Part shown: positions 24,721 to 64,000 of the stretch, in pieces
Layout: each line of letters opens with the position of its first letter
Position numbering within the stretch: position 1 is the first letter of the stretch
Source: Owenia fusiformis
Lineage: Eukaryota > Annelida > Polychaeta > Sabellida > Oweniidae
DNA length: 64,000 nucleotides
Reading direction: 5' to 3'
Assembly: GCA_903813345.2 (NCBI GenBank)
Contig: CAIIXF020000006.1
Coordinates: 17,426,348 to 17,490,347, forward strand
The notes under the pieces: model-generated
What the model saw: the letters and a program-made list of their open reading frames with translations, nothing else
The model's database searches: none
What the model was told of the DNA's origin: nothing
Made by a program: the position numbers and the translations under genes

Positions 24721-24867
24721 GCTCTCTTGAGAATTTAGAGACTGCAGGCTGTAACTGTGGCGGCCCTTCTGGTTCTGGTTCAACTCATGAAAGAAGTTTA
24801 ATAGCCTAAATGTTCAGCATATAAAAAGTGGGCGTCGCCCATGACTAGTCTTTAACAACTATGAAAA

Positions 24868-33093: not shown

Positions 33094-33139
33094 GTATGAT
33101 TTTAAACTTGCTTTATTTCATATTTTTGATGGAAAGTTT

Positions 33140-33335: not shown

Positions 33336-33339
33336 CTGA

Positions 33340-36073
33340 TGCCATGCTTAAATTTTCTTGCCATACTCATTTCTTAGACCTTTTCATAGTCAGGTCAGAT
33401 TCTTAAATGCTTTCAACATTTTCAGAAGGACTTCAAAAAATTTTCTCTCAAAAATGATAATTATGAATTTGCCAAAGTCTTGCTGAAATAAAATCACAAA
33501 TTGCTTGTTTTGTCATTGCTTTGCAAAAAATAGTTAAACATGTTAATAATCGTGAAAATTCACTTATTTTTTCATATCGGGACAGGGGGGATACGTCAGC
33601 CTTCCCAGGCTACACGCCTACACCAGGACACCATGCCCTCCACTTCAGTATCCCTTTAATTCTCTTGGTTCAAATAAAAACTGGACCTACATGACATAAT
33701 GTATTTTTCCTATTTACTGGTATCTCATTTATATCTCGTTTACAATTATTTATGTTATTTATTATACTCTTGTGTGTCAGCTAAATTAAAAAAGTTATTT
33801 TATAATTACCGCCGTGTTATTTTTACTGAAAAAGGAAATTAGGAAAATATGGTTTATGATTTGCAATGACAGGAAAATGTGCTGTTCTATAATTCAAAGT
33901 CTCCGTAAAAATCAGCTTTATCTGCAAAAACCAATTTAAAGATAAAACAACTCGTCACAAAAGAGGTCTAATTGCAACGGTATAATCCTTTTCTTGATTG
34001 CGTTTACACGGTTGCTAACACCATAGCGTTAAATAAAACAATGCTACTGTGAAAAGGTAGGAGATCTTTGTAGAATAATTAGCATTTCATTTGAAACTGT
34101 AAGAATCATATGTAAGAATAGTGGGTGGTTTCCGGTTGACCTTATTTGACAAGGTAAAATACATATATGTTGCGATAATATGATAGATATGATACATGAA
34201 ATATTTATTATCTTTTGTGCATAGGGTGGAAAATGAGTGACTACCTAGGAAATTAGAAGGTGTCTCTAAGCATTCCAATCCATCAAACTATAACAATATT
34301 TTTGTCAGAGCAATCATAACAAAATTAGCCATTAGGCTGTAAAAATCACCGTCGGTGCAGATTCCGTTGAAAATCTTGACAGAATCTATAGATAAAGGCA
34401 TTATTCCTCCGCAAAACTAATTAGCAGTATATAGGACCCCTGTAATAGTGTCCAATGTTTTATCATTGTGATCATCCAGCGTCATAAATAAACGACTTTA
34501 ATTTGAAAATACAACTTTTAGACGTTTTAATTATCCTCCCGAGGGTAACACGATATTACTCCATGTTAGTAGCCAGAGAAATCTTTGAAAAATCCCCATT
34601 TTGATTAATACGCCGATTATCTTGCCATGATCACCATGATTCTAATGAAATTTAGAAAATCACACGATTTTGATCTCCTAATACAATTCCATGTTTGTCT
34701 TTTTTCTCCCACTGATTAATGTTTGAAAGGAATCATTTACATCCAATTTGAGACTTGCCATTGAATAAAATATCACAGTGGGCATATTTTTAAACTGGAA
34801 ATATAGTAAAATAGAGACGAATAAGCAAAAAAACTGAGTAAAACATGTTAAATTCTTCGTCCGTATTTTATAGATTACCAAAAAATCAGACACTCCTTCT
34901 TTGGGAGAAAATATGCAAAATTGCGTGGTTAGAAAGACGTCTTTGTATTGATGAGTGTGTTATCAAGGCACAAGACTTATTTATTTATTCATGATGAAAT
35001 CAATTTGCACTTTTCATTTATTTTTCACTTGAAGGTATTTCCTTTGATCTTATTAACGAGGCAGATTACTGGTCTAATAGGAACATCTTTGTTTGTCATT
35101 GAATGCTATACATCATGGAATTCATCTATCAGCATCTATCAAAAGGAAATCAAAGGATTTTTATAAAGGAATTCAATGTAAATGGAGCATCAAGTAATTA
35201 AATTGGCAAAATAATTGGAAATAGCAAAATAAGTAAAATGGCAAAATCATTCAAATTGGCAAAATGGTGAAACAATTTAATTAAATATTGGTAAACTGAA
35301 TTTACACATACATGTATAGACATTCATTGCAGTGCTTGTGTTATATTTCAGATATCTTTTAAAGATTGATCTCAGGCTTACATCATGTACCTGTTATGTT
35401 TGTTACATGAATATCATATCAGTGAAAATGACTATAACTAAGAATTATGAATGACACAGGACATTGAAATATATGGCAATAGGAGCTTAAAACTGGCAAA
35501 TGGCTGTTAGGAAAAGACAGGCTGTCATTTCTGATTGCATTCAGCATTATTTATTGTTTCTTAGATGAATAAGAGATAGCTGTACGATCAATCACCAAGT
35601 GTCTTTAAATGTGTTGAAAAGAATGATACGGAAATTAAACACCCGGAAATGAATAGCTAAGAATCCTGGGTAAATAAATGAGCTGCCGGGGATTGTCACA
35701 AGCGAGCTTTAAGGTGTGAAATTTTAATCAGGTGATTATGGGCCATATCGGATAAATCCATAATGTGGTGTTGAATTGTAAACTTGTGATAGATCTTTTT
35801 TTTAATACCATAATGTAAGCTTCTCGGAATTGATTGTGAAAATTTGGATTGATATCAAGTGACAATTTTGAAATGACAACCATCGAAGCATTGCTTTACT
35901 TCAGTGGTCATTAAACCGCAACTTGGTGTTTGTTGCCAGCAGTACAGATTTTGATAAATTGTGATTCGACTTACATGTACGTGACCTGAATTAGAGGTGT
36001 TTTATCTACCAATTTTAACAGATTTCTATTGCTTGAATTACAAAGGGGTTTACCTTGTAGAAAGGTGTTTATT
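33340..36073 (+). other. LMO intron 2, distal part
   Basis: No exon seen. The stretch about 33900-34680 is non-repetitive with mixed composition and words such as CACCGTCGGTGCAGATTCCG and ATCATCCAGCGTCATAAATA. It stands out from the AT-rich background and could be a conserved regulatory element; this is inference. A short AT-rich repeat of GGCAAAATAATTGGAAATAG type lies at 35205-35280. Confidence 0.3.
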
Positions 36074-37104
36074 ATCCCATCGAACAAAGTTCGGAGGGAT
36101 ATAGGGAACGCCTCCGTCCGTCCGTCCGTCCGTACGTACGTCTGTACGTACGTCCGTCCGTCCGTCCGTCCGTCCGTCCGTCTGTCCGTCCGTCCGTCCG
36201 TCCGGGCAATAACTCAAATACCGTTGGCCCGATTTTGTTCATATTTTGTACACATATACCCTATGGGGGTAGAAGTTCTGCTCGAGAGCCGATTTTCAAA
36301 ATGGCCGCTCATTTCAAAATGGCGGCCATTTTAGTGCCGATTTTACAGTAATTTAGGTGTAATATGTAAAACTGTAATAGCAATATGTTTTAAATGTAAA
36401 AAAATTATAAAGGACATTAATAATGCTACAAATGTAGATATTAAAGAAGCACATGGCAGCCATCTTGAAAAATGGCGGCCTTTACTCGTCATTTTACGAT
36501 TTTTGCTATAACTCAAAAAATAGTGGAGCGATTTTGTTCATATTTGGTATGTGAATACTATAAGCATTGCACACTGTCTAAAGACACTTTTAGTAGAAGG
36601 TGGCCATTTTGAAAAATGGCCGCCATTTTAACATATTATACTAACTCGAAAAGTAGTGGAGCGATTTTGTTCATATTTGGTATGTGAATACTATAAGCAT
36701 GGCACACTGTCCTATGACACTTTTGGTAGAAGGCGGCCATTTTGAAAACAATTTTGAAAAATGGCCGCCATTTTAACGTATTTTACTATAACTCGAAAAG
36801 AAGTGGAGCGATTTTGTTCATATTTGATATGTGAATACTTTAAGCATGGCACATTGTCTAATAAAACTTTTTGGAGTAGTCGGCCATTTTGAAAAATGGC
36901 CACCAGTTTTATGTGTGTTATTTTACAAGTTCGTGTGCGATTTTTCAAAAATTTTAGAGGTGGCTACTTAAAAGCATATTATTTCTTCTGATGACAACTT
37001 TGCTAGTGAGCAACCATTTTGAAAATGGTGGCCTTTCTGGTGTGTTGTTTTATGATATTTGCTATTCGTTTGTAAAAATGCCAGCCATTTCTGTTCGATG
37101 GGAT
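36074..37104. mobile_element. 1.03 kb non-autonomous element with (TCCG)n and 13-bp inverted ends
   Basis: The ends are exact inverted repeats: ATCCCATCGAACA at 36074-36086 and TGTTCGATGGGAT at 37092-37104. Next to the left end is a (TCCG)n/(TACG)n tract at 36112-36204. The body has three or four diverged units of about 130-180 bp, each with CGGCCATTTTGAAAA, ATGGCCGCCATTTTAA, AAGTAGTGGAGCGATTTTG and TTCATATTTGGTATGTGAAT. I found no unambiguous target-site duplication. I associate this architecture with abundant repeats of bivalve and gastropod genomes, but that is memory. It inserted in LMO intron 2, 280 bp before exon 3. Confidence 0.75.
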
Positions 37105-37384
37105 TCGCTACGCTTTGGCGTTGCCGTTGTTCTGGTCTTACAATGGTGTTTACCTCAATACAAAGAAAGGTTTGCACTTGAAAACCTCTCTACCTCATTC
37201 GCCAGAGCCCATAGTTCTTCTTTCCTCTCTTTCTTAGCACCATTAACAAAATCCCAGGAATTGGCTCAAAACAGGGGTGTAGTCACACCCAATGCACCCC
37301 CCCCTGGGGACAACCATGCATAAAGGATTTCCTTATTGTGAATATCATGGAGTCTGTCCCTTATGAAGAAACTTGTACTTTCAG

Positions 37385-37510
37385 ATTATTTGGATCAACT
37401 GGCTATTGTTCAGCATGTAACAAGATGATTCCAGCATTTGAAATGGTAATGAGGGCCAAAGGGAATGTGTACCACCTGGAATGCTTTGCCTGTCAACAGT
37501 GTAATCACAG
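37385..37510 (+). CDS. LMO: LMO exon 3: start of LIM domain 2
   Basis: Continues the LMO frame: AG from exon 2 plus A makes Arg, then [20 protein letters not shown] and [21 protein letters not shown]. The first zinc module of LIM2 is intact (CSAC, HLEC) and CQQC starts the second. The acceptor is TTTCAG and the donor is ACAG|GTAAAA; the exon is 126 bp and leaves AG for the next junction. LFG..G.C and [14 protein letters not shown] are family hallmarks. About 150 bp downstream, at 37652-37695, the donor and its flanking 30 bp are duplicated with a stronger consensus, CACAG|GTAAGT. Use of that second donor would add 148 bp and meet a TAA at once. Confidence 0.95.
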
Positions 37511-37695
37511 GTAAAAGTCACGTCAATTCAATTCAATTTGTGGCGACGTTTTTTTTAATTTTTTTATTAAGTTATTCATTTGTACAAAGAATACAATACA
37601 ATAATACAGTGTAAGTGGCTGTGCTTTTAGCATTATTAGCCACGTTATCACGCCACAGGTAAGTCACGTCAATTCAATTCAATTTGTGGCGAATT
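37505..37695 (+). repeat. Duplicated exon 3 splice-donor segment
   Basis: CACAGGTAAAAGTCACG followed by TCAATTCAATTCAATTTGTG (from 37506) recurs from 37654 as CACAGGTAAGTCACG with the same tail. Both are followed by a T-rich tract, so about 40 bp that includes the splice site is directly repeated with about 110 bp between the copies. Confidence 0.85.
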
Positions 37696-39069
37696 TTTTT
37701 TTTAAATCTATTTTATTTTTAATACCAAAGTTGCATAATTGTTGGAAATTGTGGCATGATTTTCTATATAATTTTTGTGTTCCACCTGTTTCTTGCTCAA
37801 ACATTTGACATAGATTTCCATTTCGAAATATGACAACTTTGAAACGTTATGGCATTTTCCAAATAAAATATAATTACTAATTGATGTCAAATTAATTTTT
37901 CTCAATCATGTTAAAAACAAGAAGCATTTTAAGAAGTAGAAATCTTGGAACTGAAATGACAAATGTAAAGAGAAAAGTTGTCAATATATTGCGAGTGTTA
38001 GGCACTTGACGAGGCTAAGGAGGTATAAAAAGCAATAATACTTACGGGAGTGAAGTACAGCTCTTCAGTCAATATAAGTGTCTCTCTAAGTACGTAATAT
38101 ACGAGAAATACTCCCTGAAACATATAAATGAAACCAGAAATTCTTTCTTTTGCAGTTCCTTTATTGGTTATCTTCATGTTTTTTAAATTCAGAGCAATAT
38201 TTAATACATCATTTAGCATGATTTCATTGAAGTACAATAACAGTTATTTTGAATAAATGGCGCTCTTAGGACATGGGTATTGAGCAAGGGTAAGGGATCT
38301 CAAGTATTGTGTATTTCTTCAGAACACTCTAAAAGGCAATAATTACAGCCTAGTTCTTGATCTAAACTGACAAATTCTCTGCTTCAGTTCTATCAAACAC
38401 GCAGGTCAGGGCATTTACGACTTTTTATCGGGTAATTTAGCTACAAAAAGCCGTGTGTTTTTGTCATAAACGTCAGTGCTCATCACCAGTTGAACTGAAC
38501 AATAGTAATATTACTTAATGCATGAAATTAAAACTCTGTACTCACTTTAATTTACATTATTAGACAACCTCATAAACGTCAGTGAGAATCCAGCAAAATT
38601 AATGAGATATGAACGTTAATGGGCGATTACCACCAAAGGGAATAGGGACATTTTGCGATCTTTACGGTATTATTACGGGCATTTAAGCGTGACTAATGCT
38701 AACTGTGAAAAGCTATGTTACTGTTAATTAACTTTTGAAGTGTAAAATAATATTCGCAATGACCAATCTTGTTATTATTTCAACTATGTGCTATGCAAGT
38801 TTTATATTTTATATATGGTAAAACCTCAAACGTTTCTTGAAATTGTTATCATAAAACCCAAAAATTGAATCAATGAAAGGATTTGATTTGATATTTCTTT
38901 ATCAGCATCATACAAGCTACACTGAACAACACTTATAGACTCTTCCACAAAGGATTGTTTCGAATAATATCTATGTCCAAATACACTGACACGTTAGACT
39001 ATCGTTTGTAATCTGTTCACTCCAGATAATTTTTAATAAAATAAAAATGTTTTCTATTTCTGTTTCCAG
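37696..39069 (+). other. LMO intron 3, remainder
   Basis: No exon seen before the 39069 acceptor. The interval about 38440-38760 is non-repetitive, with TTAATG/ATTA cores, CAGTGAGAATCC, and GATCTTTACGG words. It looks more like a constrained non-coding element than its neighbours; unproven. Confidence 0.3.
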
Positions 39070-39262
39070 GTTTTGTGTTGGCGATAAATTTTATTTGTGT
39101 GACAATAAAATATTATGTGAATATGACTATGAGGAACGGATGGTATTCGCCAGTATGTCATATAACTATAATGCCTTGGCCCAGATTAAGAGGCAAGCCC
39201 AGTGTCTGAGTGATGATATGTCTAGTGGATATGGGAGTCCTAGTCCAGGATCGTTAACATAG
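39070..39262 (+). CDS. LMO: LMO exon 4: end of LIM2 and C-terminal tail
   Basis: Final coding exon. After TTTCCAG, G completes the Arg codon, then FCVGDKFYLCDNKILCEYDY. That carries the last LIM2 ligands (CEYD), completing the second zinc module begun by CQQC in exon 3. A 38-residue tail follows, MVFASMSYNYNALAQIKRQA and a Ser/Gly/Pro-rich end SGYGSPSPGSLT, then TAG. Vertebrate LMO1 and LMO3 stop soon after LIM2, so this tail is longer than theirs. With exons 1-4 the protein is about 249 aa; without exon 1 it is about 175 aa. Confidence 0.95.
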
Positions 39263-49329: not shown

Positions 49330-49543
49330 AAAGTCGAACTGTAAGTACCAAGACACTTACGGTCACCTGGTATCAGCTCAATCTTACTTTGGATTCGCAA
49401 TAATCGAGTGCTTATAATGGACTGACAAAAACATATTTTATCTTGGAAGACAGTACAAATTTTACTGGTAAAATAAATTAATAAGCATTACATTTTGTTA
49501 CCAAAAGCTATAGAAGAAAAAATAAGGTAATAAAGTGAGTAAT
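49330..49543 (+). promoter_or_regulatory. Upstream region of lectin gene 1, conserved in copy 2
   Basis: TATCAGCTCAATCTTACTTT, GGATTCGCAATAATCGAGTG, and AGAAAAAATAAGGTAA just before the ATG are matched at 59040-59236 before the second lectin gene. The region presumably holds the 5'UTR and proximal promoter, duplicated with the gene. No clear TATA box or initiator is visible. Confidence 0.5.
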
Positions 49544-49994
49544 ATGTGTTCAACTTTTACAGAAATCTGTTTTTCTGCTCTATTTTCTGTTTGTTTCTGT
49601 GGGAGCATAGATCAAGTATATTATGAAAGAAACCCAGGTCAAATCTATCACCACGATGGCAATGGAGTGGGCCTGATCGCGAGTATATCAAAAAATTCAA
49701 AAATGCGGTGTCTAGTGGAATGTGCAAATGAACCACAATGTTTGAACGTTAACTTCAAAAAAGGTGAAACATGTGAGATGTTTGGATTGGCAGATGGCGG
49801 GTGGTACGAACATAATGATGCATTTGACTCTTATTTTGCAATAAGTAGGGCAATAGTCCCAATAACTTCTCAGCTATCAACAACGACTACTCCTACCACA
49901 GAACCACCAACTACGACTGTAGGCCCAACTATGATGGCTTCAACTACTGAACCTCAAACAACTGCTACTACAACGAAGCCACCAAGTACTGCAG
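49544..49994 (+). CDS. Lectin gene 1 exon 1: signal peptide, PAN-like domain, Thr-rich linker
   Basis: First exon of a secreted multi-domain lectin. The ATG at 49544 was chosen because it aligns with the only ATG of the paralogue at 59237; the frame is also open from a GTG at 49535. Residues 1-20 or so (ending SVCFCGS) are a hydrophobic signal peptide. Residues about 20-95 are PAN/apple-like: VYYERNPGQIYHHDGNGVGL, then CLVECANEPQCLNVNFKKGE with the CxxxC.....C spacing and CEMFGLADGGWYEH. From about residue 108 a Thr/Pro-rich mucin-like linker runs to the exon end. It is 150 codons plus one base, donor GCAG|GTAATG (phase 1), matching exon 2. The PAN call is by cysteine pattern; ligands are unknown. 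It is nearly the same as 59237-59624 apart from the linker. Confidence 0.8.
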
Positions 49995-50231
49995 GTAATG
50001 CTATACTTTAACCATGGGAGTAATTCTATATTAATATATTAGGTATGACATTTTGGCAAAATATGAGTAAAATAAAGAATTGTACCTAAATTATAGAAAT
50101 TACGAGAAATTCTGCAATTTGAAAAGCTGTTTTTCGAGGTAATGCGTCAATTTTTTATTTCATGACGTCCATTGTTTGATTTGAAATATCGCACACATAA
50201 AGAGAAAAGTTCAAATTTCATATACCCTAAT
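49995..50231 (+). other. Start of lectin gene 1 intron 1
   Basis: The intron runs 49995-55888 (5,894 bp). This first part is AT-rich unique sequence with no features I can name; the remainder is annotated element by element. Confidence 0.6.
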
Positions 50232-51146
50232 CACGGGTAACTAGGGTATCCGCGTATATTGAGTATGACCGGTTCTTAGGCTACGAATATGACCTGTTTT
50301 TGAAAGTCATGAGAGGCACAGCTGCTTAAAAATGGAAAATAAAGGTTAACTTCTATATTATCCTTTTTGAAATTGTGTTTGTTGAATATAGTTTATGCTC
50401 TATTTAATAGTAATGTAACAAAAAAATGTTAAACATGAGCTATTTTAGCAATGTAACTGTTCATAATGGAATATCTATCAGAAAGTACAGATTTCTCGCC
50501 TTAGAGCCAAATCATTAATATCACAGTAGAAAAAAACAAATCCCAAACCTTTTTATGGCTAACCTGAACAAGATCTCCAAATCTCAGTTTATATGATCCC
50601 CCGTAGAGTGAGCAAGAGAAGGATTTATCTTTTCCCAGAGGATACGCTTGTAAAATGTCATGGAAACGAGTGTAACACGGCCCACTGATTGTTTCACAAT
50701 CGTATTCTCCAATAATGGGGCACCAGTGACATTCGTATTCTCAAAAATTCAAAGATGTATCATATTTGGACAGAGCAGGCTAAATTATTTAAAATATTCA
50801 TGACTAATTCGTAGATCTAGCTATATATTATACATAAGATGTGTCATCCTCTTCGGAGTTGCGTTGTGTTACACAAAAACTGATCAAAGATGCTGGAAAC
50901 TAGGATTTTACGGCTTCAATCTAATATTAATACGTTTTCTCTTGATTAAGGCCCCTTGTGATATGCCTGGCATTACAAGTATACCAAGTATCATTCATTG
51001 ACCAAGTAGGATAAAAAGAAAACGTTCGAAAGTGTTCATAAAAAGCAAGTACTCACCTCGTCTGTTTATAGGAACAGAAATACGGTCACACTCGTAAGCT
51101 TAGAACCGGTCATACTCAATATACGCGGATACTCTAGTATCCCGTG
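50232..51146. mobile_element. 915-bp element, 60-bp inverted ends, CTAAT duplication
   Basis: The left end CACGGGTAACTAGGGTATCC and on to about 50295 is matched inverted by the right end, including TATTGAGTATGACCGGTTCT and GCGTATATTGAG. The flanks are CTAAT on both sides (50227-50231 and 51147-51151). There is no transposase frame. It sits in intron 1 of lectin gene 1. The corresponding early intron of gene 2 lacks it. Confidence 0.9.
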
Positions 51147-51544
51147 CTAATTTTCATGACATTTGGTTCATATAGAATGTGAGTGTCCCATATTTATTTG
51201 CCCACCCCGCGGGTCTTTAATATCTGTAGTACTAATCTATGTACAACTATTTTTGATGTTATGAGTATAGGCTATCAATATTTTCAAATTTATTGTAATG
51301 ACCCGTGGATGAACGTTTATGTAATATGTGTGGTATTTTAGAAGATGAATACACTTTATTATGATTTGTGTGAAAAACAGAGAGAAAACTTCTGTTTGAC
51401 ACCCTAACACAATTTAATTTTGTTATTTTTAAAAAGCTGATGTCTCATGAAAATTCTTAGTCATTTTACATCTTTCAAAGTTGTTTATCATTCATTCCTG
51501 GATTAAAAAAACTGGATTAATATTGTGACAATGATACACCACAT

Positions 51545-51848
51545 GGGCGTAGCGCCTATTACGCAAAATACGCACAGGCGTACCAAATGAATTTGAAAAC
51601 AATTAAAAATGTGTTAAAATGCATTAATTTATTTGCGAATTTATTGATGCTTCCTATCGTATCTGTATGTTTACCATTGTCAACATTTAAAGTTGATAAA
51701 AACGCTTAGATTCCATCAAATAACATCCTTGAAAAAAAAATTCGCGGGGGAGCATACCCCCGGACCCCCCGTGATGCACGCCCTTCGGTCATGCATTCAG
51801 GCATCCCCGAGTGTGCGTACCAACTCAAAATATAGCCCTACGCCCATG
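51545..51848. mobile_element. 304-bp element, GGGCGTAG ends, CACCACAT duplication
   Basis: GGGCGTAGCGCC at the left and CTACGCCC near the right are inverted repeats. CACCACA is found directly on both sides (51537-51543 and 51849-51855), extendable to 8 bp (CACCACAT) depending on where the end is set. The internal GCACAGGCGTACCA is shared with 44680. An 8-bp duplication and GGCGTAG ends suggest a hAT relative; uncertain. Confidence 0.75.
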
Positions 51849-51938
51849 CACCACATTGATGTTTTAAATTAAGTTATGCTGTATTTGTATTTTACAAATA
51901 TCTCGTATTTTTGTATTTTACATTTTGTGATGCTGTAA

Positions 51939-52830
51939 TAGACGAGATGCGAGTAGAAATAATCTTGGATTACGTCATTGAATATTCAAAGTCAAAGTGA
52001 TGTCATATTTGAAATCTACATTCAAGTTCAGGTTGATTCCCCATAGACCCCATGTTACAAAATCAAAAAAGTGAAATATTCTTTCTTGTACTCGACATAT
52101 TTTAATTTGCATAACTATTCGATACATAAGGGTTAAATGATAAAAAGAAAAACTGAGCCACTAAAACTAATGTAATTTAAGTTAAAGGGAAGATTCTACT
52201 ATAGGTGGGGGTATATAGAGATATTGTATATCGTATAAGAGGGTGAACATTTATTGTATATTTTATAAGAGGGGGCAAAATTTATCGTATATGGTATAAG
52301 AGGTGTAAAAAATATAATGGATATGGTATAAGAGGAAATATATGGTATATGGTATCTCAAGGCACCAGGCCAGCAGGTTAAATATATGTTTAAAAAAGAA
52401 TTAAAAAAGACTTATTACATTGTATTTTATCCTAAAATTCCCCATTGTGCTGACTCTCTGACTGTAACTGTGTTAAATTTACATAAAAAATCTCTCTAAT
52501 AGACTAGATGTGAGTAGAAATAATCTTGATTTACATCATTAAAATTTCCGTCAAACTAATGTCATATTTGGAATCTACATGTAAAAGAACGGGAATGGGA
52601 TTCTGAAAAGAGTTTATCAACTTTGAAAATTTAATATTCTTTGAAAATGCGACTTCTAGGTCGGTGAAATTCCCCATAGACCCCATGTTGTAAAATCACA
52701 AAGAGTGAAATATCTTTTCTTGTGTTGGGCAGATCATATTTTCTTTTACTGAACGTATTTTAATTTGTATAACTATCAGAAACATAAAAGTAATACAAAA
52801 AGTGAACCAGTGAAGTTAAAGAACTCTCCT
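51939..52830 (+). repeat. Direct duplication flanking a minisatellite
   Basis: Blocks at 51939-52190 and 52500-52830 share AGACGAGATGCGAGTAGAAA or AGACTAGATGTGAGTAGAAA, ATAATCTTG, TTCCCCATAGACCCCATGTT, GTGAAATAT and the TATTTTAATTTG tail. The second has about 80 bp inserted. Between them, 52205-52370 is a tandem of GTATATGGTATAAGAGG-like units (about 36 bp, five copies). Confidence 0.8.
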
Positions 52831-54117
52831 TACTTTTTGTACCATTGGGATGCATGTTAAATTGACAAAGTTCGAATTAGAATTTCTCAAATCGCAGCCC
52901 ATCGATTTTCAAAGAATTTCAGAGAATTACAGCAAAGCATTTCACCTCCATGTCAAAGAATGTCAACAAAAATACCCCACGAAAATCAAAATCTCTTACA
53001 TAATACGAGTACCAAAACGTCATCATATTTATACTTTAGACTAATTGACCAATTCACCGCTACCAAGGTCATCCATCCGCAGAAAATAATCCCAAATATT
53101 TTACCGTTCACTGTTATGATCACATGTCTCCCAGTTATTCTGGGCATTATATGTCAGCAAATCAGAGTATTCTATCCAAAGATGGTGCTGAAGTATACCA
53201 TTGAAGTCCCCAAACAGGTTTCTAATAGAACTACTTTCCTCATACCACGAGATAAACAAACCGAGTAAGGATAGTAACTCGAATCAGCCACCTGGTGGCG
53301 AAACTGGAAACTACCTACTTGCATCTAAGTAATTGGTTCCACATTCCAGATCAAGGTTTTGAGAAATCACTCTAAAACAACGAGTTTTGTGCCCCTTTCC
53401 TTAAATTCAATCTCGAATAAGAATGCCAAATGCCATTGACTCTTCTCAACTTTGATGAAAAATATGGTCCTGTGGCTTCTCGTGTTTCTGGGTTTGTGGC
53501 ATCTTGGATTTCCAAGGTATGATGTGTTCATATTGATTGATTGAAAATCAAACGAGTATAGGTTTGTGGGACAAATCATTAAAATATTTGAGTATAAAGT
53601 GTTCAAACAGCGTATGTGTTAGTACAAGTATCACTAGATACAGTAAAATAGCAAAAGGTGTCCAATATTTTGTGTCCTCCAAACATCAAGATTTAATCAA
53701 TGCACATAAATTATTTCAAACAATTATTTTCAGAAATTAGACTAATCCAATGTAGTATTTAAATGATTGTTATATAAATTCTCAATTAATTCGAATTTTA
53801 AATAAAAAGTAAATTGAATATGTTGAGTATGTGTTGGAGGATACAAAACATATGGACATTATAAAACGTTACTAGTTTTTAATGAGTTCGACATATCAAA
53901 CAACCCCTTTTGAGAGATGGTGGAAAACATATTAGTTAACCAGTCAGAAATAATCGACGGACTTTGATTTGTCAAAATTTGATTTTTGTCCAAAAAATCA
54001 CCATTAAAGCTGCTTTTAAGAAATAATAAGCAATATTTTCAATATATATTGCATGGTCATGGTAAACAGTTGTGTTGAAAGCATAATAGCACATATATAG
54101 TGTCGTTGTTCTCAATA
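52831..54117. other. Intron of lectin gene 1, no further feature seen
   Basis: Open frames at 52850-53044, 52960-53268 (+) and 53367-53606 (-) were considered. One (52960-53268) has a hydrophobic stretch ILPFTVMITCLPVILGIICQ, but no family, start or splice context was recognisable. Confidence 0.45.
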
Positions 54118-55036
54118 CGAGGGGTGATCAATAAGTAATGGACGCATTTTACACGGATGCTTTTTATGAATCTCTTTGATTTTTCACCAGTGATACATCA
54201 ATCAATTATCTATCAACTCTGAAGATTGGAAGACAAGATATGAAATGCGTGTTGATATATCTTTATTTTAGTGAAGGGGTACAGGTACCCCGCGACCAAC
54301 ATTTACGTCACATATTCTGAAGTAATGCCAATTTGGCATATCAGTTAGATTTGAACTTTTTGATATGCCAAAAGAGTTGTGAAGTTTGAATATCATGCTG
54401 CCTGTGGTAACACATAAAAGATTCTAGTATTGTGATATCAAAGTGTTAGTCAGGCTTTGCAGGTTGATTTATGAATGCACTGTGGAAGAAGGGGTTAGTA
54501 AGAGGAGGTAACACTGTACTCCATGTGGACAATGCCCCTGCCCAAATATCTCAAACTGTGCAGGATACAATATCCCTGGCCCATGCAGCCTTTAGTCCAG
54601 ATCTGGCCATATATGACTTATTTATTTCTATCCTACTTATTTCTGGAGAGAAATGATGCAGGTTTAATGACAATGATGAAATAAAACCAGCTGTGTAACT
54701 GCAGCTTACTACCATGTCAGAGAATGGATTCGGTCTGGTCTTTCAATCTTGGGTTAATGATGGAGGATTTTGTAATGAGGAGTGTGTAGCACTAAATGGA
54801 GTCTATGTATAGGACCCTGTAAGATGAAGGTGGCAAGAACGCCACAAAGTGATGACAAAATATTGGTGTAAAAATGGTGTAATTCATAACCATAATGGTT
54901 AGTTTTGTTCAACTTGCATTAAACTCCATTCCACGTTAAATGAGCTATATAGCTTCAGAATCACTGGTGAAAAAATTAAAGAAATTGGTTTATAAATCTA
55001 TGTAAAAAGCGTCTATTACTTATTGATCACCCCTCG
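54118..55036 (+). mobile_element. Tc1/mariner element, internally deleted
   Basis: The inverted ends begin CGAGGGGTGATCAATAAGTA and pair over about 35 bp. TA dinucleotides flank both sides (54116-54117 and 55037-55038), the expected mariner target duplication. It is 919 bp, shorter than the usual 1.3 kb, and contains only a fragment of transposase. Confidence 0.88.
54471..54656 (+). pseudogene. Mariner-type transposase fragment
   Basis: The frame contains VLHVDNAPAQISQTVQD and FSPDLAIYDLFI. In mariner transposases the second and third catalytic acidic residues sit in HxDNAPxH and YSPDLAPxDxxLFP contexts, so the family is clear. The fragment starts late and lacks the N-terminal helix-turn-helix and first Asp, and the histidine of DNAPxH is Gln here. 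It cannot encode an active enzyme. Confidence 0.85.
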
Positions 55037-55219
55037 TACACATGGATAGCAGAATTCATGGAATCTAAAAAATATAGATTATCGTAGATTTGCCCCTACA
55101 CAAGGTATTAAATATAGACAGGGTATGCTGAAATAAGTCCACGGATTGTACCCATTGAAGCGCAAGCGTTTCATTCTAAATGATTCATCCCTACTACCCG
55201 TAGTTACACGTTTTTGAAT

Positions 55220-55460
55220 GGATTGAACAATCCAATAATAGTTCTCCAGGGGCTGTGAATTTATAACAATTCGAGAATTATCCAGATAAATTTTATCTTC
55301 TGGGATAAATTTTGGATTTTTGATCAAGATAAATATTTGGTGAATTGGTAGATTTATCCAGATGACCAAATTACATTGGAATTGGGATAAATTTTATCCG
55401 AAAATTAATCCGCCTATGTAGGTGGATTGAAATTAGGATAACATTTATCCAAAAGAAGAT
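55220..55460 (+). promoter_or_regulatory. Cluster of TTATCC/GGATAA words before the lectin exon
   Basis: A dozen or so GGATAAA and TTTATCC words in both orientations, plus a palindrome AATCCGCCTATGTAGGTGGATT-like core, lie 430-670 bp upstream of exon 2 in gene 1 and are repeated at 63360-63560 in gene 2. GATA and TTATC are the core of GATA-factor sites. Conservation in both copies may only reflect the recent duplication; regulation is inferred. Confidence 0.3.
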
Positions 55461-55609
55461 TGTACGATTTCACCATTATAAGGATACATTCCAAGATAAA
55501 TAATCCCACAATATATCATTACGATGACGAAATTTATCCGGATCAATCATAGGATCGTACCAATACACGGCCCCAGTATCCCGAATGTGTTATCAAACTT
55601 AACGATGGA

Positions 55610-55697
55610 AACATTCATCTGTATGCTGCTATTTCCAAGCTCAGTGGATGTTAAATATCTACCAGAGCTTGGGAATAGCAGCATACAGATGGATGTT
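55610..55697. repeat. Inverted repeat in a copy 1-specific insert
   Basis: AACATTCATCTGTATGCTGC with CTATTTCCAAGCTC pairs with GAGCTTGGGAATAGCAGCAT with ACAGATGGATGTTT, arms about 35 bp with a 22-bp loop. Copy 2 lacks the region corresponding to about 55455-55680 and joins directly to CAGATGGATGTTTC near 63575. The copy-1 sequence therefore gained an insert, or copy 2 lost it. Confidence 0.8.
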
Positions 55698-55888
55698 TCT
55701 AACTGAATTTACTTTGGTATTATTGGTGCAAAAATGAACTGATAGTATAGCAAAACAGCACCACGCGGTATTGATTTACCTTTTCCTAAGTTATTGTCGT
55801 ACTGATGGACAGATGGTATTGATATATCCTCCTAATAATAAAAATTGTTCGTTTCGATTGCGATTAAATATATTTTCTGTAGTTCCAG

Positions 55889-56077
55889 ATTGTGGGTCAC
55901 TGGGCTTAGTGGACCTGGGTGTAACTGGCTCCTGCTACTACATTGAGGCAATAGATAGGAACGTTATGGATGGATTGAATATATGTCAGTCACATTCCCC
56001 ACCCATGAGCTTAGTATCCATAGACGATGCAGATGAACAAAACAAGATAAGGGCACACCTTGCCGGTCTCAACTCAC
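55889..56077 (+). CDS. Lectin gene 1 exon 2: first half of C-type lectin domain
   Basis: After GTTCCAG the two bases AT complete the Asp codon left by exon 1 (phase 1), giving DCGSLGLVDLGVTGSCYYIE. This holds the N-terminal Cys pair of a long-form CTLD, then LNICQSHSPPMSLVSIDDAD and EQNKIRAHLAGL. LVSI.....EQ..I is the family's second helix region. The exon leaves one base, C, before donor CAC|GTATGC. The open frame beyond the donor is intron. Exon 2 of gene 2 differs at only a few bases, including one Thr to Ala change. Confidence 0.85.
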
Positions 56078-56199
56078 GTATGCGTTTATTGTCTTACATT
56101 TTCATTAAAATGGCAGCCGTTTTTCAGTGCCCTACCGAGTAAATTTATTTTTAGATTCATCCATTGCTGAAATCTTTTTTCGGGACACCGGCCCGATAT

Positions 56200-56353
56200 A
56201 TAAGGGTTATGTACTGGGAGGTTTTGGTTATGGGGTTTATCCAGAGGGAGATATGCATATCTACCTGAGGGACAGTAGGGACCGAAGGTAGATGTGCATA
56301 TTTCACGAGGGATGAACCCAATATCCAAACCGACCGTACATAACTGCTTTATC
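56200..56353. repeat. Dispersed repeat family B, copy 2
   Basis: The reverse complement matches 20872-20998 over about 130 bp, from GATAAAGCAGTTATGTACG to AACCTCCCAGTACATAACCC. It lies in intron 2 of lectin gene 1. A (TA)n tract at 56355-56400 follows. Confidence 0.75.
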
Positions 56354-56394
56354 TGTAATATATATAATATATAATATATTATAATATAATATAT

Positions 56395-57043
56395 TATAGT
56401 AGCCTCATAGTCATGCCTCTCTATTTTCTCAATAACTTTCTCAATTTTGATGATTTTTTCATGAAATTTTCACAGAATAAACCTTAAAGAATTCCTAACA
56501 TACCAATCTTTTTATACGGTAAATGTCCCATTAATTTCATTGTTACAACCCTTTGAAAAATAATGTCATATTCTGTTGATGGGTCAATTTTGTCGCCATT
56601 TGAAAGCATCTTTTATCTCCATCAAGTATGACAATAGGCGAGTAGAAATTTAATGCCTTTTATGGGACGAGCAGTATAGAGGCTTGAGATCACGAGGTCT
56701 TGAAATAGTATGGTGGATTTAGAACACTAAAAAAGATAAATGATCCCCTATCAAAGACTGCAATCAAATTTGTAGACCATATTAGGACAAAACGTAATTT
56801 AGATTGTTCGTATCTTTTTAGAAAAAAAGACGACAAAAATGACCCATCAACAGAATATGACATTATTTTTTAAAAGGTTGTAACAATCAAATAATGAGGC
56901 ATTTACCATATAAAAAAATTTATATGTTAGGAATTTTTTAAAGTTTATTCCTTGAAAATTTTATCAAAAAATATTCAAAATTGAGAAAGTTATTGAGAAA
57001 ATAGAGAGGCATGACTTGTTCTGGCCAGGCTGCTATATAATAT
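56395..57043. mobile_element. 650-bp foldback element in lectin intron 2
   Basis: The arms 56395-56610 and 56826-57043 are inverted copies: TCATGCCTCTCTATTTTCTC, AATAACTTTCTCAATTTTGA and AATGTCATATTCTGTTGATG with the GGGTCAATTTTGTCG side pair over about 210 bp. The spacer is about 215 bp. No coding frame. The target duplication is unclear because the left end merges into the (TA)n tract. Confidence 0.85.
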
Positions 57044-57214
57044 TTGATGGGATAATAACGATATTTGAACAAGTGATTTCGCATGTCAATCATTGGATTG
57101 AAACCAAACTAAATTGAGTATAAGACCAGAAATCTCAAAGATTCCTAGCCATCTTTATGTCCATGCTCTATTAATTTGTGCAACTTTCTCATCATATTGT
57201 TAACATCATTCCAG

Positions 57215-57432
57215 CTTCTTGGTGGAACATTGGTCTGAATGATTTAGCAGTACAGGGTCAGTATGTCTGGTTTGCTACTGGAGCAGCTCCATCTTGGACC
57301 AACTGGCGTTTTGGTCAACCAAATACGATTTCAGACCATTGTGTTATTATGAGTAACGATAATGGAGAGTGGTATGACCATGATTGTAATGTCTCCCTCG
57401 GCCAATTTACAATTTGCGAATATAAACAATGA
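57215..57432 (+). CDS. Lectin gene 1 exon 3: second half of C-type lectin domain
   Basis: After ATTCCAG the frame runs (C)CT TCT TGG TGG, giving SWWNIGLNDLAVQGQYVWFA, then WTNWRFGQPN, DHCVIM, GEWYDHDC and TICEY, followed by QTGA-type termination (stop at 57430-57432). WIGLND-like, NW..GQP, C, W.D..C and CEY are the CTLD core. The sugar-site position reads QPN, a hybrid of the mannose-type EPN and galactose-type QPD motifs, and the second calcium motif is WYD where WND is usual. Sugar specificity cannot be assigned. With exons 1 and 2 the protein is about 285 aa. AATAAA follows at 57440-57445. Confidence 0.88.
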
Positions 57433-57439
57433 ATATTTT

Positions 57440-57445
57440 AATAAA
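57440..57445 (+). terminator. Polyadenylation signal of lectin gene 1
   Basis: AATAAA begins 7 bp after the stop codon. A short 3'UTR would result if used. No cleavage site can be fixed. Confidence 0.5.
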
Positions 57446-57600
57446 GAGAAATCGAATATCATATTGTTGAGGTAACCTGAAATGGAACTGATCATACAGT
57501 GTATATGTAAATATGTTCTCCCCTTAGCTTTCATATAAAGACATGATATCCCGCATGTTATATACCAAATTAACCCTCATTGAGATGTTAGAGCACCTAC

Positions 57601-57818
57601 CAAATTTGAATAATGAACGAAACAGAATAAAAAGTTACACTTGAAGCAAAAATTGAAGGTTTGCGATATAATCTTATGGATATTGGAACACTGTGCCATG
57701 GGCCATGCAGCCGAAGGTAAGCCATACAACAGAATTTTGCCGATTCAATCTGACGGAGAATGCCGAGCCTCTCCATGGCAACCACTACCACCACATCCCC
57801 TGACGTACATGTAGTAGC
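57601..57818 (-). pseudogene. Possible second exon of a sorbitol dehydrogenase-like fragment
   Basis: On the - strand TTTTCAG precedes GCTACTACATGTACG at 57818, and the open frame ends at a GTAGGT donor (57600). It begins ATTCTSGDVVVVVAMERLG, which parallels the ATRSGG..VLVGLG strand that follows the exon at 58065-58232 in sorbitol dehydrogenases, in the correct order and phase 0. After that the frame (ILRQIESAKFCCMAYLRL) no longer resembles the family, so I suspect a frameshift or divergence. The weak homology makes this tentative. Confidence 0.35.
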
Positions 57819-58064
57819 CTGAAAACTGAAATGAGCGGTGTATTCTCAATGATCAGAACCAAATAACGAACATGCATGTAAATGCTCCAAGTTTCATCAA
57901 AGAGGTTTAGATTTAAAAAAATATACATAATAGAACTATTTTAAAATGCATGGCAAACAGATGTGTGAAAAAGTAGAATTTTGATAAAAAGCAAGAAAAT
58001 AGAAATAACCAAGCAGGATTAAAAAAAGCTAAACATACGTATAATTTACCAGGGCCTTGCTTAC

Positions 58065-58232
58065 CCATACTGCCAATTGGTAACTTGGCTCTACTCCACT
58101 ACACTCTATGGCAATATCAGCCTGTTGTCCCATTGCTTCTATAACTCTATCAGCAAGTACTTGGCCGGTTTCATCAACCTTGGCAAGTACAGTAAAGTCA
58201 GCGCCCATCTCTTTTGCCTGCTGTAGTCTTCT
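58065..58232 (-). CDS. Sorbitol dehydrogenase-like exon, isolated fragment
   Basis: A 56-codon phase 0 exon on the - strand, between a TATCTGAG acceptor and a strong GTAAGC donor: RRLQQAKEMGADFTVLAKVD ..., then ADIAIECSGVEPSYQLAVW. This matches the part of medium-chain sorbitol (L-iditol) dehydrogenase after the nucleotide-binding Gly motif (RL.KAKE.GAD, .IECTGAE.S.Q). The family oxidises sorbitol to fructose with NAD. The zinc-ligand exons, the GxGPxG strand and all other exons are missing within the window, so it is a fragment or pseudogene. It lies alone between the two lectin genes, on the opposite strand. Confidence 0.65.
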
Positions 58233-59039
58233 CTCAGATAGATATAACAATTAGACATCATGATAAACCATGAGATCTCATTTCTTCTCAGCCCTGAGGT
58301 TTCAGGTGAAAAAGAAAGATGCTATGAGTATCAGAATGACAATTAGTATGAAAATATATTTTTATTTTCTTATAAGCATTGGCACACACAACCTTCCAAC
58401 TATGTTCTTAATATTCTGATGATATTATTTTACTCCACAATATTGCCTAAACACCATGCATTGGTCAGAGTTATTTTTATTATTATGAAAAAATAAAATA
58501 AAATAAGACGTACTTGTTTGAAATAACAAATATTTGAATCGGCATTTAGACTATCCACTATCCAGGATAATTATCGAAACCTTGGTTTATACATCAGAAG
58601 TTTTAATGGAAAAGCGATCAATTCGAGTGGAGGACGTTCGCGCCGGTTTTTCAATAACTTCGTATTGGATTGGATCATAATAGGCTTCTGACAGAATCAC
58701 GATTGACATTGTCATTGCATGTGCTGGTTTATTTTTCCTGCGAAAAAGTAGCCCTTGAGTTGAAAATAAACTGTGTGAAAATCCTGAAATTCTTGACATC
58801 CCGTGATAATACAGATCAATATAATAACTCAATGGAAAAAACTCCTCGAGAAAAACAAAAATCTATTAGATCGACTTTTCTTTGTGAACCTTTTTAGGAG
58901 TTTTAGAAAAAGGCGCATGGCAAGAAATGATTATGATATTCTCCAAAAAAACAATGAAACAATTTTCAATTGTTTTTGTATGTCTGATTACCCCTTTCAA
59001 TCACTTAAGGTAATTGGTCATTGTAAATAACAAGACAAT
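58233..59039. other. Intergenic between SORD-like fragment and lectin gene 2
   Basis: No further dehydrogenase exon found. The - strand frame at 58587-58832 and the + frames at 58670-58897 and 58803-59030 overlap, and none resembles a known protein. Confidence 0.5.
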
Positions 59040-59236
59040 GACCCGCGTATCAGCTCAGTCTGACTTTGGATTCGCAATAATCGAGTGACTGACAAAATTC
59101 ACTTTTGACAGGAGAGTTATAGAAAAATATATTTTATTTCTATGAACAGTACACATCTTTACGGAGAAAATATATTAATAAACATTAAATCTTGTTACAA
59201 AAAGTTATAAAAGAAAAAATAAGGTAACAAAGTAAC
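59040..59236 (+). promoter_or_regulatory. Upstream region of lectin gene 2
   Basis: Shares TATCAGCTCAGTCTGACTTT, GGATTCGCAATAATCGAGTG and AAAGAAAAAATAAGGTAA with 49330-49543, with small indels. See that entry. Confidence 0.5.
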
Positions 59237-59624
59237 ATGTGTTCTGTTGCAAGAATCTGTTTTGCTGTTCTATTTTCTGTTTGTTTCTGTGACAACATAG
59301 ATCAAGTATATTATGAAAGAAACCCGGGTCAAATCTATCACCATGATGGCAATGGAGTGGGCCTGATTGCGAGTATATCAAAAAATTCGAAAATGCGATG
59401 CTTAGCGGAATGTGCAAATGAACCACAATGTTTCAACGTTAACTTCAAAAAAGGTGTATTGTGTGAGATGTATGGGTTGGCAGATGCCGGGTGGTACGAA
59501 CATCATGATACATTTGACTCTTATTTTGCAAAAAGCAAGCCAATAGTCTCAAAAACTACAATACAGCTACCAACAACGACTACTACTACTACTACTACAA
59601 CGCAGTCTCCAACTTCTGCCACAG
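59237..59624 (+). CDS. Lectin gene 2 exon 1: signal peptide, PAN-like domain, Thr linker
   Basis: Paralogue of 49544-49994. MCSVARICFAVLFSVCFC is a signal peptide. The PAN-like part, VYYERNPGQIYHHDGNGVGL, then CLAECANEPQCFNVNFKKG and CEMYGLADAGWYEH, keeps all cysteines. The linker is shorter and more uniform, a run of about nine Thr followed by QSPTSAT, where gene 1 has a longer Thr/Pro/Glu mixture. The donor ACAG|GTAATA leaves phase 1 like gene 1. The open frame continuing past 59624 is intron. As in gene 1, PAN is called from the cysteine pattern. Confidence 0.8.
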
Positions 59625-59703
59625 GTAATACTCCACTTAAACTAAGGCCTACGGTGTAATGTTTTATATTAATATACACGTTATAAGTTATACCGTTGTG
59701 ATA

Positions 59704-62267
59704 AATGGGCGTAGCCAAGCATGAGGTAGGCGGATAAGTGTCTTACTTAAATTTTACAGACCTAGAAACATAAGGTAATATCACGCCTAACCATTGACAA
59801 CGTACAGTGACAAAATATACCGTCGCACACTTTAGGTGAACGGTGTCACTATTAACTGATTTGAAGCGAAAACTGATGTAGGTTTGATGAAGGTTTTCAA
59901 AAATTAATTTGAGGAATACATAAAGGAGTTCATGTTTGATTTCGTGTGTATTCGATTTGGAAGACATTTACATTTCTAATTACGTTAGACGATTTTCGAG
60001 CAGTGCACATTTCCTTTGATCGTTTTCTCCCCTGTCGCCCAAGAGTGCCGAATATTTTTATGAGAAAATGTTTCTCTAAACTACACAATTTAAGACGGTT
60101 GAAGGCTTAATAAATATTCATGAATTTGGTATCAAAAAAGAAAAATGTACGTTGTCATCTTCAATGTACGTTGTCCTGTTAATTGAAATGCATGAGATAT
60201 GAGATACTATACTGAGGAATAAGTGATGTTCAACAAACATATTCATGTATCCCTGGTACAGATAAACGGGTAAAAGTGATTTTTACCCCTTGTTGAATGC
60301 TATTTTATTTTATGAAAGTGTTGATAGCGATTAATATTTGACCATGGGGTGTTATCTTCCAACTTCTTTCACTTGACTATTCGGCGTCGGTACGTTACGT
60401 TATGTTATACTTTTATGAATTTTAATAATCTTAAGGAGTTCATGGAGAGATCTTTACTAGCTAATCGAAGATGACTTTCAAAATCCAGTTTACGCTATAT
60501 CTGGAAAGTGCTGAAGTTCTAAGGTTTTAGGTTAAATAAAGTTGAAGTAATACTGTTATTGTTCAGTTTCAATTTGAAATGATGAATGATTTAATTAGTA
60601 TTTTCTGTAACACTTATGTGCTAGTTTTGTTTTGGCGTATGCTTTCAAGTTTTTTTTCATTAACAAGATACTTTTTGAAAATCAACCAAACTTTCCTTTG
60701 TACAATTACAATAAATTATAATGTTACCATCCAAAAGATGACCATTGAATTGACGATGTGTAAAATTTTCAGAATGTTTTAGTGACTTGTTTAACCCTTA
60801 AATGGTTTTTTGGTTCTTTGCAATAATTATATTAGAAATAACCATTCTATCAACATGAAATTCCATCTAATTCTCAATTAATACAATTCCTTTCAGATTT
60901 AACAAATTAGATATAAATCGCATTATGACTTTTTGTGCTACCTGAGGCCAAAGAACATCACTATCACTGAAACATATTCAATTAATACAGTGTTATATAT
61001 ATATGCTACGAAATGTTACAAAATGCTAAAACACCTGACCCCTTATGGTTAGGTTTACACATATTTCCATGCATTCATGATAAATAATGCATACATATTC
61101 TGAAGGGTAATAGATTAACATATGTAAAACTGAAGTCAGAATGAAAAAAGCTTCTCTGGTTGCAAAGTAATTGCAAAATATATATTGGGTTACAAACGGA
61201 CCCCAAAAACCTTTAGTAAAAACAAAACAAAAAACATTTGAGGGATAAGAGAAACGCGTGTTCAAAAAGTTGACCATATCGATACCACTCTTTTATTTGC
61301 ATAGAATTCAAGTACAAATTAATAACAATATAAGTAAATCTTCACAGAGTGTTTACCAAATTAAGCGTGACAGTTGAACGAGCGGGGTAAGGTACAACGC
61401 AAGGGTGATGCAAATTGAGCTAACTGCATGGTGTTTTCGTCTGTACTTTAACGTAATAAGATACACTTTTATGAAATTTAATAATCTTAAGAAGTTGACA
61501 GAGAGATTTGTACTAGCTAGTCGAAGATGACTTTTTAAAATCCCGTTTATGCTATATCTGGAAAGTGCGGAGGTTCAATATAGTTCAATCAAATTGAATT
61601 AGTAATACTGTGATTGTTCTGTTTCAGTTTTAAATGAATCTGATCCCCCTGCCCCTTAGTGTTATGAAAAATACGTTGTCTACATTAGGGTTAACTGTGA
61701 ATTCAGATATGTAAGTTCAATGGAACAACGTACATCGAAATGACAACGTACACTTATGATTTTTTAAAAACTATTTTAGCAAAAACGTGAATTTATATTA
61801 AATCTTCAATCGACCTCAATTATGTAACTTAGGGAAACATATTCTCATAAAAATAATAAACACTCTTAGGCGACATGGGAAAAGCTGACCAAAGTAAATG
61901 TGAAAAAATCAACATTTTTCAACCGATCATTGCTGGTGGGTAGATTTACGACGAAAAACTCGAGCACTGCTCGAGAATCTTTTAATGTAATTAGAAAGGT
62001 TAATGTCTTCCAAATCGAATACACACGAAATTAAACATGAAATCCTTAAAGTTTTCCTCAGATTAATTTTTAAAGCCTAAATCACACCCACATTATAGCT
62101 TTTGCTTCATATCAGTTAGAATAGTGACACCGTACATCTAAAGTGTACGACTGCGTGTTTTGTCACTGTACGTTGTCGATGGTTAGGCGTGAATATACCT
62201 CATTTAGTCTAAAAGCCTCGCCTCTTCATTCTTGCCTTACCTAAGAATGATCCTAGCCACGCCCCTG
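59704..62267. mobile_element. 2.56 kb foldback element in lectin gene 2 intron 1
   Basis: Inverted arms 59704-60200 and 61660-62267 share, in opposite orientation, ATGGTTAGGCGTGA and its inverse, ACAACGTACAGTGACAAAA with TTTTGTCACTGTACGTTGTC, and CAAATCGAATACACACGAAA with its inverse. The right terminus read inward is CAGGGGCGTGGCTAGGATC, and the left is ATGGGCGTAGCCAAGCATG. CAGGGGCGTGGC looks like a hAT-type end, but the target duplication is not clear. Between the arms, 60390-60590 and 61448-61640 are direct copies of each other (ATAATCTTAAG, TATATCTGGAAAGTGC, ACTGTTATTGTTC). No intact frame. Gene 1 lacks it. Confidence 0.85.
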
Positions 62268-63231
62268 TGCAATATCAACATTGGTGCAATTGCAAACAAG
62301 TGAGGATTATTGCGTATATCTAATTTTTATGTGTTTATTTGGATTATGCGTTCTGAGAAGAATTGGGCTTCGAGTGCGAAATTCCATTCAATTGAAAAGG
62401 GAGTTATAATGATATATCATTCAGAATAAAATAAAATTGACTTTTTCTTTTGGAATCGGAAAAAAATTAAGCAAGGAAATCTCGAATGGGATTGAACAAG
62501 ATAAAGGAATGATGCTTTCGTCATATTAGAATCATAATAAAAACCAGCATTTTTTATTTATGGCATTTATGAAGAGATTTCTTTTTGTGAATATACAGAA
62601 TAAAATGTTTGGTCGTACACAATAAAATATATAAACCACCTTTATTAACCCATCTTTATTCCTAAAGTGCATACATAATGAATATATAAGCGCAAATGCC
62701 AAAGGGAAGGGTAAATCTGTCATAAGAAAAGTAGACCCTATATATCCCAAAACCATGATCTAACGTGAAAAGAAACAAAGTCTAACATCCCCCCCTCCAA
62801 TCGAGAACCAATATCACAATCCAGGACCAGAACACCAAGGGACATTTCATTCATACTGAAGTCATTACAATACATGTTGAAGAAAAATTGAAAAATTGAT
62901 AGCCAATACCCATAACATCAGTAGTTGTAGATACTAGAACTCATAAAATATAAAGTATTCAGTCTCAAATGATGTGGGATAGATAAGATCCAGTCTCGAA
63001 GTCCATAGGCAATTCAAAGAATCATAATCCGTTCGCAAAGCCGTCATCATAATCCATAAAATACAAAGAGAGACCAACTTCTACAATAAGTCTGAGTTTT
63101 CCCTCTACAAAATTTGTGAATCTACAAGTTATTATTTATTTTCTGTTCCAAATTCTGTCAAATAATTGACAACCTATCAAAGACAGTCACATGTGGTATA
63201 AACTTGTTTTCTTAAAAAGACATTAAAACGC
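62268..63231 (+). other. Lectin gene 2 intron 1, unique part
   Basis: No feature recognised. AT-rich. A - strand frame at 62532-62756 has hydrophobic residues but no family. Confidence 0.5.
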
Positions 63232-63775
63232 CATATACAAGGTATTAAATATAGACAGGGTATGCTGAAATAAGTCCACGGATTGTACCCAATGATTCAT
63301 CCCGTAGTTACACGTTTTTGAATGGATTGAATAATCCAAATAATAGTTCTCCAGGGGCCGTGAATTTATAACAATTCGAGAATTTATCCGGATAAATTTT
63401 ATCTTCAAGGATAAATTTTGGATTTTCGATCCAGATAAATATTTGATGAATTGGTAGATTTGTCCAAATGACCAAATTACATTGAAATTTGGATCAAGTT
63501 TATCCGAAAATTAATCCACCTATGTAGGTGGATTGAAATTAGGATAGCGTTTATCCAAAAGGTTCAGCATGCAGATGGATGTTTCTAACTGAATTTACTT
63601 TCAATTGGTATTGTTGGTGTAAAAATGAACTGATAGCAAAACAGCACCACGCGGTATTGATTTACCCTTTCCTAAGTTATTGTCGTACTGATGGACAGAT
63701 GGTATTGATATATCCTCCTAATAATAAAAATTGTTCGTTTCGATTGCGATTAAATATATTTTTCTGTAGTTCCAG
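63232..63775 (+). repeat. Intron segment duplicated from lectin gene 1
   Basis: AAGGTATTAAATATAGACAG through the TTATCC cluster to the exon 2 acceptor matches 55100-55888, except that gene 2 lacks about 225 bp corresponding to 55455-55680 and has small deletions near 63290. It is almost identical over most of its length. Confidence 0.9.
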
Positions 63776-63964
63776 ATTGTGGGTCACTGGGCTTAGTGGA
63801 CCTGGGTGTAGCTGGCTCCTGCTACTATATTGAGGCAATAGATAGGAACGTTATGGATGGATTGAATATATGTCAGTCACATTCCCCACCCATGAGCTTA
63901 GTATCCATAGACGATGCAGATGAACAAAACAAGATAAGAGCACACCTTGCCGGTCTCAACTCAC
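63776..63964 (+). CDS. Lectin gene 2 exon 2 (partial gene at window end)
   Basis: Same 189 bp, same phases and same splice sites (TTCCAG acceptor, CAC|GTATGC donor) as 55889-56077. The protein reads DCGSLGLVDLGVAGSCYYIE to AHLAGL, with Thr changed to Ala and a few silent differences. The last lectin exon, expected about 1.1 kb further on if the spacing is kept, is outside the window. Whether this gene is complete cannot be judged. Confidence 0.85.
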
Positions 63965-64000
63965 GTATGCGTTTATTGTCTTACATTTTCATTAAAATGG

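Follow-up and report, generated by a model that had tools for sequence, protein, structure and literature searches.

Two stretches on the forward strand of a genomic segment of the annelid Owenia fusiformis (64,000 nucleotides, referred to as the window) begin with similar exons and share a nearly identical second exon. This raises the question of whether they are two genes for one kind of protein, what that protein is, and how the copies have come to resemble each other so unevenly along their length. A sequence-only reading had seen in them a same-strand pair of genes sharing leader, PAN domain, Thr-rich linker and long-form C-type lectin domain (CTLD). We consider it probable, judging from the sequence comparisons described here, that the locus contains two tandem paralogues encoding a secreted recognition protein composed of a PAN-like module, a stalk and a CTLD, and that a local duplication was followed by homogenization of exon 2.

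Results

Gene structure and extent of the two copies

The features of both copies are collected in Table 1. The open frames and the GT/AG exon borders agree with the gene pair and the exon positions proposed earlier, and the exon phases are equal as had been claimed, with phase 1 after exons 1 and 2 in both copies. The tandem gene pair is real. The joining of exons 1 and 2 is predicted from the sequence, across an intron of ~5.9 kb in gene A and ~4.1 kb in gene B. The exon 2 start at 55889 chosen in the sequence-only reading is in frame, but the upstream AG, which gives a start at 55883 and is also in frame, has the better pyrimidine tract (tracts compared by eye). Use of 55883 would yield a gene A product of 287 aa and use of 55889 one of 285 aa, the difference being Val-Pro. 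Exon 3 of gene B lies beyond the end of the window, and the one complete CTLD visible is that of gene A.

Table 1. Positions of the features of the lectin gene pair within the window
Feature	Position	Strand	Remarks
Gene A exon 1: putative leader, PAN-like segment, Thr-rich linker	49544..49994	+	Open frame, donor GTAATG
Gene A exon 2: first half of CTLD	55883..56077, alternative start 55889	+	In frame with exons 1 and 3 from either start
Gene A exon 3: second half of CTLD	57215..57432	+	WNIGL, QPN, WYD and stop; Lectin_C match
AATAAA, possible polyadenylation signal of gene A	57440..57445	+	
Gene B exon 1: putative leader, PAN-like segment, shorter Thr-rich linker	59237..59624	+	
Gene B exon 2: first half of CTLD	63770..63964, alternative start 63776	+	
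High-identity block around exon 2	55747..56113	+	Matches 63633-64000 with 4 mismatches in 367 aligned bases; reaches the window end in copy B
Shared upstream flank	49340..49543	+	Matches 59022-59236, 164 of 193 aligned bases identical

When the gene A protein was compared with the 64 kb by tblastn at E values up to 10, both genes were recovered together with three short matches (E 3.0, 6.9 and 9.1). Twenty pattern matches of the same protein in prokaryote genome contigs and 31 of the PAN alignment in viral contigs were followed up by tblastn, and none was confirmed, as expected of an animal gene. Rfam, applied to the whole window at gathering scores, gave no match.

Other features of the window

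Exons of a LIM-only (LMO-type) gene are found at 32822-39262 (+); their frames, joined by eye, match the structures of LMO-2 (E 2.1e-46) and LMO4 (E 4.3e-46), a sign of animal DNA. Between the lectin genes, on the opposite strand, a short frame at ~58050-58230 (-) resembles part of sorbitol dehydrogenase; its best PDB match has an E value of 0.012, with none at E up to 0.01, and ADH_zinc_N scores 17.8 bits (cut-off 31.8). Long inverted copies at 22325-25677 (identity 94.8% in 651 aligned bases and 97.0% in 504) include an open frame of 108 aa; for one copy, this frame was compared with Pfam and matched nothing at E values up to 0.1.

Both first introns contain inverted repeats. In gene A, inverted ends of 43 bases (91% complementary) at 54116-55038 enclose decayed frames, which we take to resemble a mariner-type transposase; a 45-aa piece of this element had no match in Pfam or NCBIfam. 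Its only same-strand match in intron 1 of gene B is 36 bases long (E 0.075). In gene B, an inverted repeat with arms of 405 and 479 bases (70% identity) at 59770-62203 is perhaps a foldback-type element.

The C-type lectin half

The CTLD identity of gene A is well supported by profile and sequence comparisons. The joined exons match Lectin_C (PF00059) over residues 177-282 with 34.7 bits (cut-off 22.6; E 3.2e-8). Exon 3 alone reaches 25.8 bits, and the gain of ~9 bits on joining exon 2 to it supports this join. The unspliced exon 2 frame on its own matched no Pfam family at E values up to 1. All six cysteines of the long form are present (Cys152, 166, 183, 256, 271 and 281), and the WIGL-like motif reads WNIGL. 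A PDB sequence search returned 80 distinct sequences up to E 0.1. Among the best 60 of these 80, the top match was the macrophage mannose receptor (5xts), with an E value of 4.4e-14 summed over several domains and 4.6e-8 for the best single domain; DC-SIGN (1sl5) was also among the best matches (E 6.6e-10). These two proteins are vertebrate membrane receptors. Their CTLDs can be aligned with that of gene A including the calcium-site region, but the match spans only the lectin part of gene A. For gene A, the long-form CTLD of the sequence-only reading is therefore confirmed by the Lectin_C score, the cysteines and the PDB matches. In gene B, the first three CTLD cysteines fall within the window, and Lectin_C did not match the visible half at E values up to 1, the second half of the domain being outside the window.

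At calcium site 2, gene A has QPN and WYD, whereas the canonical combination is EPN or QPD plus WND and DC-SIGN has EPN at the aligned position. From the usual ligand positions and the PDB alignment, we take Gln248, Asn250, Asp254 and Asp268 to be candidate calcium ligands, with Tyr267 presumably in place of the usual Asn. Several QPN lectins with an altered second motif are listed in the excerpts of a review of bivalve lectins (PMC12842671), for example MmCTL4 (QPN/WSD), which is reported there to be calcium dependent and to bind D-xylose and D-mannose. Gene A resembles MmCTL4 in combining QPN with an altered WND motif (PMC12842671, excerpts); WYD does not occur in that text. With candidate calcium ligands in place and such lectins on record, sugar binding by the gene A CTLD is plausible, through a site that would be non-canonical.

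The N-terminal half

The most hydrophobic 15-residue stretch of gene A starts at residue 8 (hydropathy 2.13; maximum after residue 25: 1.2), which fits a leader. A leader of ~20 residues and secretion of the product are thus predicted. Of the 46 residues taken as the linker of gene A (105-150), 19 are Thr, 8 are Pro and 4 are Ser; gene B has a shorter linker.

The segment between leader and linker probably is a PAN module. In Pfam, gene A exon 1 matched PAN_1 with 18.5 bits (cut-off 21.4; E 0.0018) and PAN_3 (E 0.0043), and at E up to 1 these were the only families listed. Gene B exon 1 matched PAN_1 with 15.9 bits (cut-off 21.4; E 0.012), PAN_4 (E 0.034), PAN_3 (E 0.06) and, as a fourth family, DUF3439 of unknown function (E 0.47). 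Every match to PAN_1, PAN_3 and PAN_4 (PF00024, PF08277 and PF14295) was under the curated cut-off in both copies. The PAN domain assigned by the sequence-only reading thus recurs as a coherent set of families in both copies but stays below the Pfam gathering score throughout, and of the two domains that had been expected in the joined protein, only Lectin_C exceeds its cut-off. When the gene A segment was shuffled, PAN families appeared in none of ten shuffles, and unrelated families at E up to 1 in three of ten, one of them at 0.0056. The E value alone is therefore a weak argument, and a better one is that the matched families form a coherent PAN set. The cysteines of the gene A segment (Cys56, 60, 66 and 77) are spaced C-x3-C-x5-C-x10-C, which we take to resemble the PAN core.

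PDB sequence searches with the copy pair or with the PAN part of copy A returned no PAN protein; the top-scoring entry, an eggshell protein rich in cysteine, had an E value of 0.00086 for copy A and of 0.064 for the pair. It is not a PAN protein by name and aligned in stretches of ~20 residues, none significant singly. AlphaFold models of the PAN part had a mean pLDDT of 37.7 from one sequence and 48.3 from the two-sequence alignment. The latter model has one helix among strands, presumably as in the PAN fold. Submitted to Foldseek, it had 194 matches at E values of 10 or less, of which none reached 0.001; among the best 50 of the 194 none was a PAN protein by title. NCBIfam had no match to exon 1 at E up to 0.1. 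Between the copies, the PAN region has a dN of 0.050 and a dS of 0.226, as for a constrained protein.

Divergence between the copies

Identity between the copies, counted over aligned bases with gaps excluded, varies along their length. Exon 1 (49544-49857 in copy A) is identical at 280 of 311 bases, and exon 1 with the upstream flank at 88.1%; distal intron 1 (55094-55455) is identical at 310 of 329 bases, with 35 gap positions. Exon 2 is identical at 186 of 189 bases, and this near-identity, which the sequence-only reading had noticed for the exon itself, runs into both flanking introns, giving 98.9% (363/367) for the block. Mismatches are significantly more frequent in exon 1 plus flank than in the exon 2 block (60/504 versus 4/367; Fisher p=6.7e-11), and in the distal intron than in the intron parts of the block (19/329 versus 1/178; p=0.003). 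Between the exon 2 codons, dS is 0.049 and dN is 0.007.

When the first introns were compared by blastn on the same strand, a match was found in the last ~0.8 kb of copy A; elsewhere in the intron, the sole match was the one of 36 bases mentioned above. A self comparison also revealed an opposite-strand match of 54 bases (51238-51291 with 62933-62884). As the first introns are mostly unmatched, one clean duplication does not account for the entire history of the pair, and the uneven divergence suggests either recent exchange or an assembly duplicate. The simplest reading of these comparisons would be a gene duplication, differing intron insertions, and a later exchange of the exon 2 region.

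The leaders differ by 8.5 non-synonymous and 0.5 synonymous differences over 17 codons. We considered whether the leader is under positive selection but make no such claim, as 17 codons are too few.

Discussion

Our reading of the locus has to be weighed against three others. Exon 1 might be a gene of its own, coding for a small secreted PAN-like and Thr-rich protein, with exons 2 and 3 forming a separate lectin gene. Past the donor, the frame of exon 1 stops after five codons in gene A and after 11 in gene B, so that exon 1 could stand alone, and the length of intron 1 is also in favour of two genes. However, the donors and acceptors are canonical with matching phases, the order of exon 1 and exon 2 is kept in both copies, and inspection by eye found no leader-like start upstream of exon 2. 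We regard separate genes as very unlikely. More weight, although we still think it rather unlikely, is due to the possibility that the small cysteine-rich module at the N-terminus is not PAN: this would agree with the sub-threshold Pfam scores, with a shuffled control that reached nearly the same E value, and with a search that produced neither a PAN relative in the PDB nor a confident model. It would have to accommodate a list of families for gene A exon 1 that, at E up to 1, consists of PAN families only, and cysteines spaced much as in the PAN core. We retain a single spliced gene per copy with a probable PAN module.

The third reading concerns the pair itself. If the second exon 2 block were the other allele of the first, set in tandem by the assembly, only exon 1 would be truly duplicated. 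Four differences in 367 bases are within the range that is common between alleles of outbred invertebrates, and the block runs past the end of the window. The 60 differences in 504 bases of exon 1 and its flank, however, are above the usual allelic level, and the distal intron likewise differs (19/329 bases and 35 gap positions). An artefact of this kind appears unlikely as an account of the pair, and part of the exon 2 near-identity may be an assembly effect. Gene duplication with later exchange around exon 2 remains the reading that we prefer.

On that reading, the protein would be exported by its leader of ~20 residues, as its hydropathy suggests. The PAN-like module would then be a probable contact for protein or glycan, held at a distance by a Thr- and Pro-rich stalk that is likely O-glycosylated, and the C-terminal CTLD would bind glycan, probably in a calcium-dependent manner and with a modified sugar preference. 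A local gene duplication would have produced the pair; leader, PAN module and linker would have drifted, while the exon 2 region may have been homogenized at a later time, gene conversion or unequal exchange being the simplest mechanism.

The exon frames and phases, the homology of the gene A CTLD, the duplication and its uneven divergence are established from the sequence, and the joining of exon 1 to exon 2, the PAN identity, the secretion, the ligands and a role in defence are predicted. The secreted two-headed protein of the sequence-only reading is well grounded as regards a CTLD-bearing gene A, but its PAN head is weakly, though coherently, indicated. Its shared architecture applies to the leader, the Thr-rich linker and the CTLD of gene A, whereas the PAN module scores below the cut-off and the CTLD of gene B is incomplete in the window. 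From what is known of such domains, the product is perhaps a secreted two-headed reader of glycan and protein in defence or mucus. An 'expanding immune family', as had been suggested, goes beyond the two copies visible in the 64-kb window, one of them cut by the window end.

The combination of PAN and CTLD is already known. A survey of nematode lectins (PMC5297725) refers, in its excerpts, to earlier finds of proteins with both domains and reports class IV proteins with one or two CTLDs plus one or two CW (PAN_3) domains; its table gives 16 of these for C. elegans and zero for the other six nematodes. The likeness to class IV consists in having a PAN-type module and a CTLD in one animal protein and is one of domain content, with the Thr-rich stalk and the domain order outside the comparison (PMC5297725, excerpts). 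In the literature examined, which was available in part, this survey was the only source of PAN plus CTLD proteins, and this is no proof of absence elsewhere. 'PAN' occurs in the excerpts of PMC12842671 only as an author's name, and in those of PMC10140915 and PMC11797021 only in a pan-genome title and an author's name; the excerpts of PMC3269628 mention a PAN module in a legend on rhamnose-binding, not C-type, lectins. PAN does not occur in PMC8878817, nor do the terms sought in PMC5094078. The tandem pair, with its Thr-rich stalk, adds a new instance to this combination.

A more far-reaching possibility, which we consider quite unlikely, is a larger array, with the pair at one end, in which gene conversion homogenizes the lectin exon again and again while leader, PAN head and stalk length diversify. 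Such an array would provide a set of proteins with one common glycan reader and a varied second head. For the pair itself, the meaning depends on the uneven divergence. Were this an assembly effect, the locus would add one further two-domain lectin of a combination already on record. If it is real, the pair would offer a testable, if small, example of modular evolution in animal lectins, in which one recognition head is kept uniform and the other is free to change.
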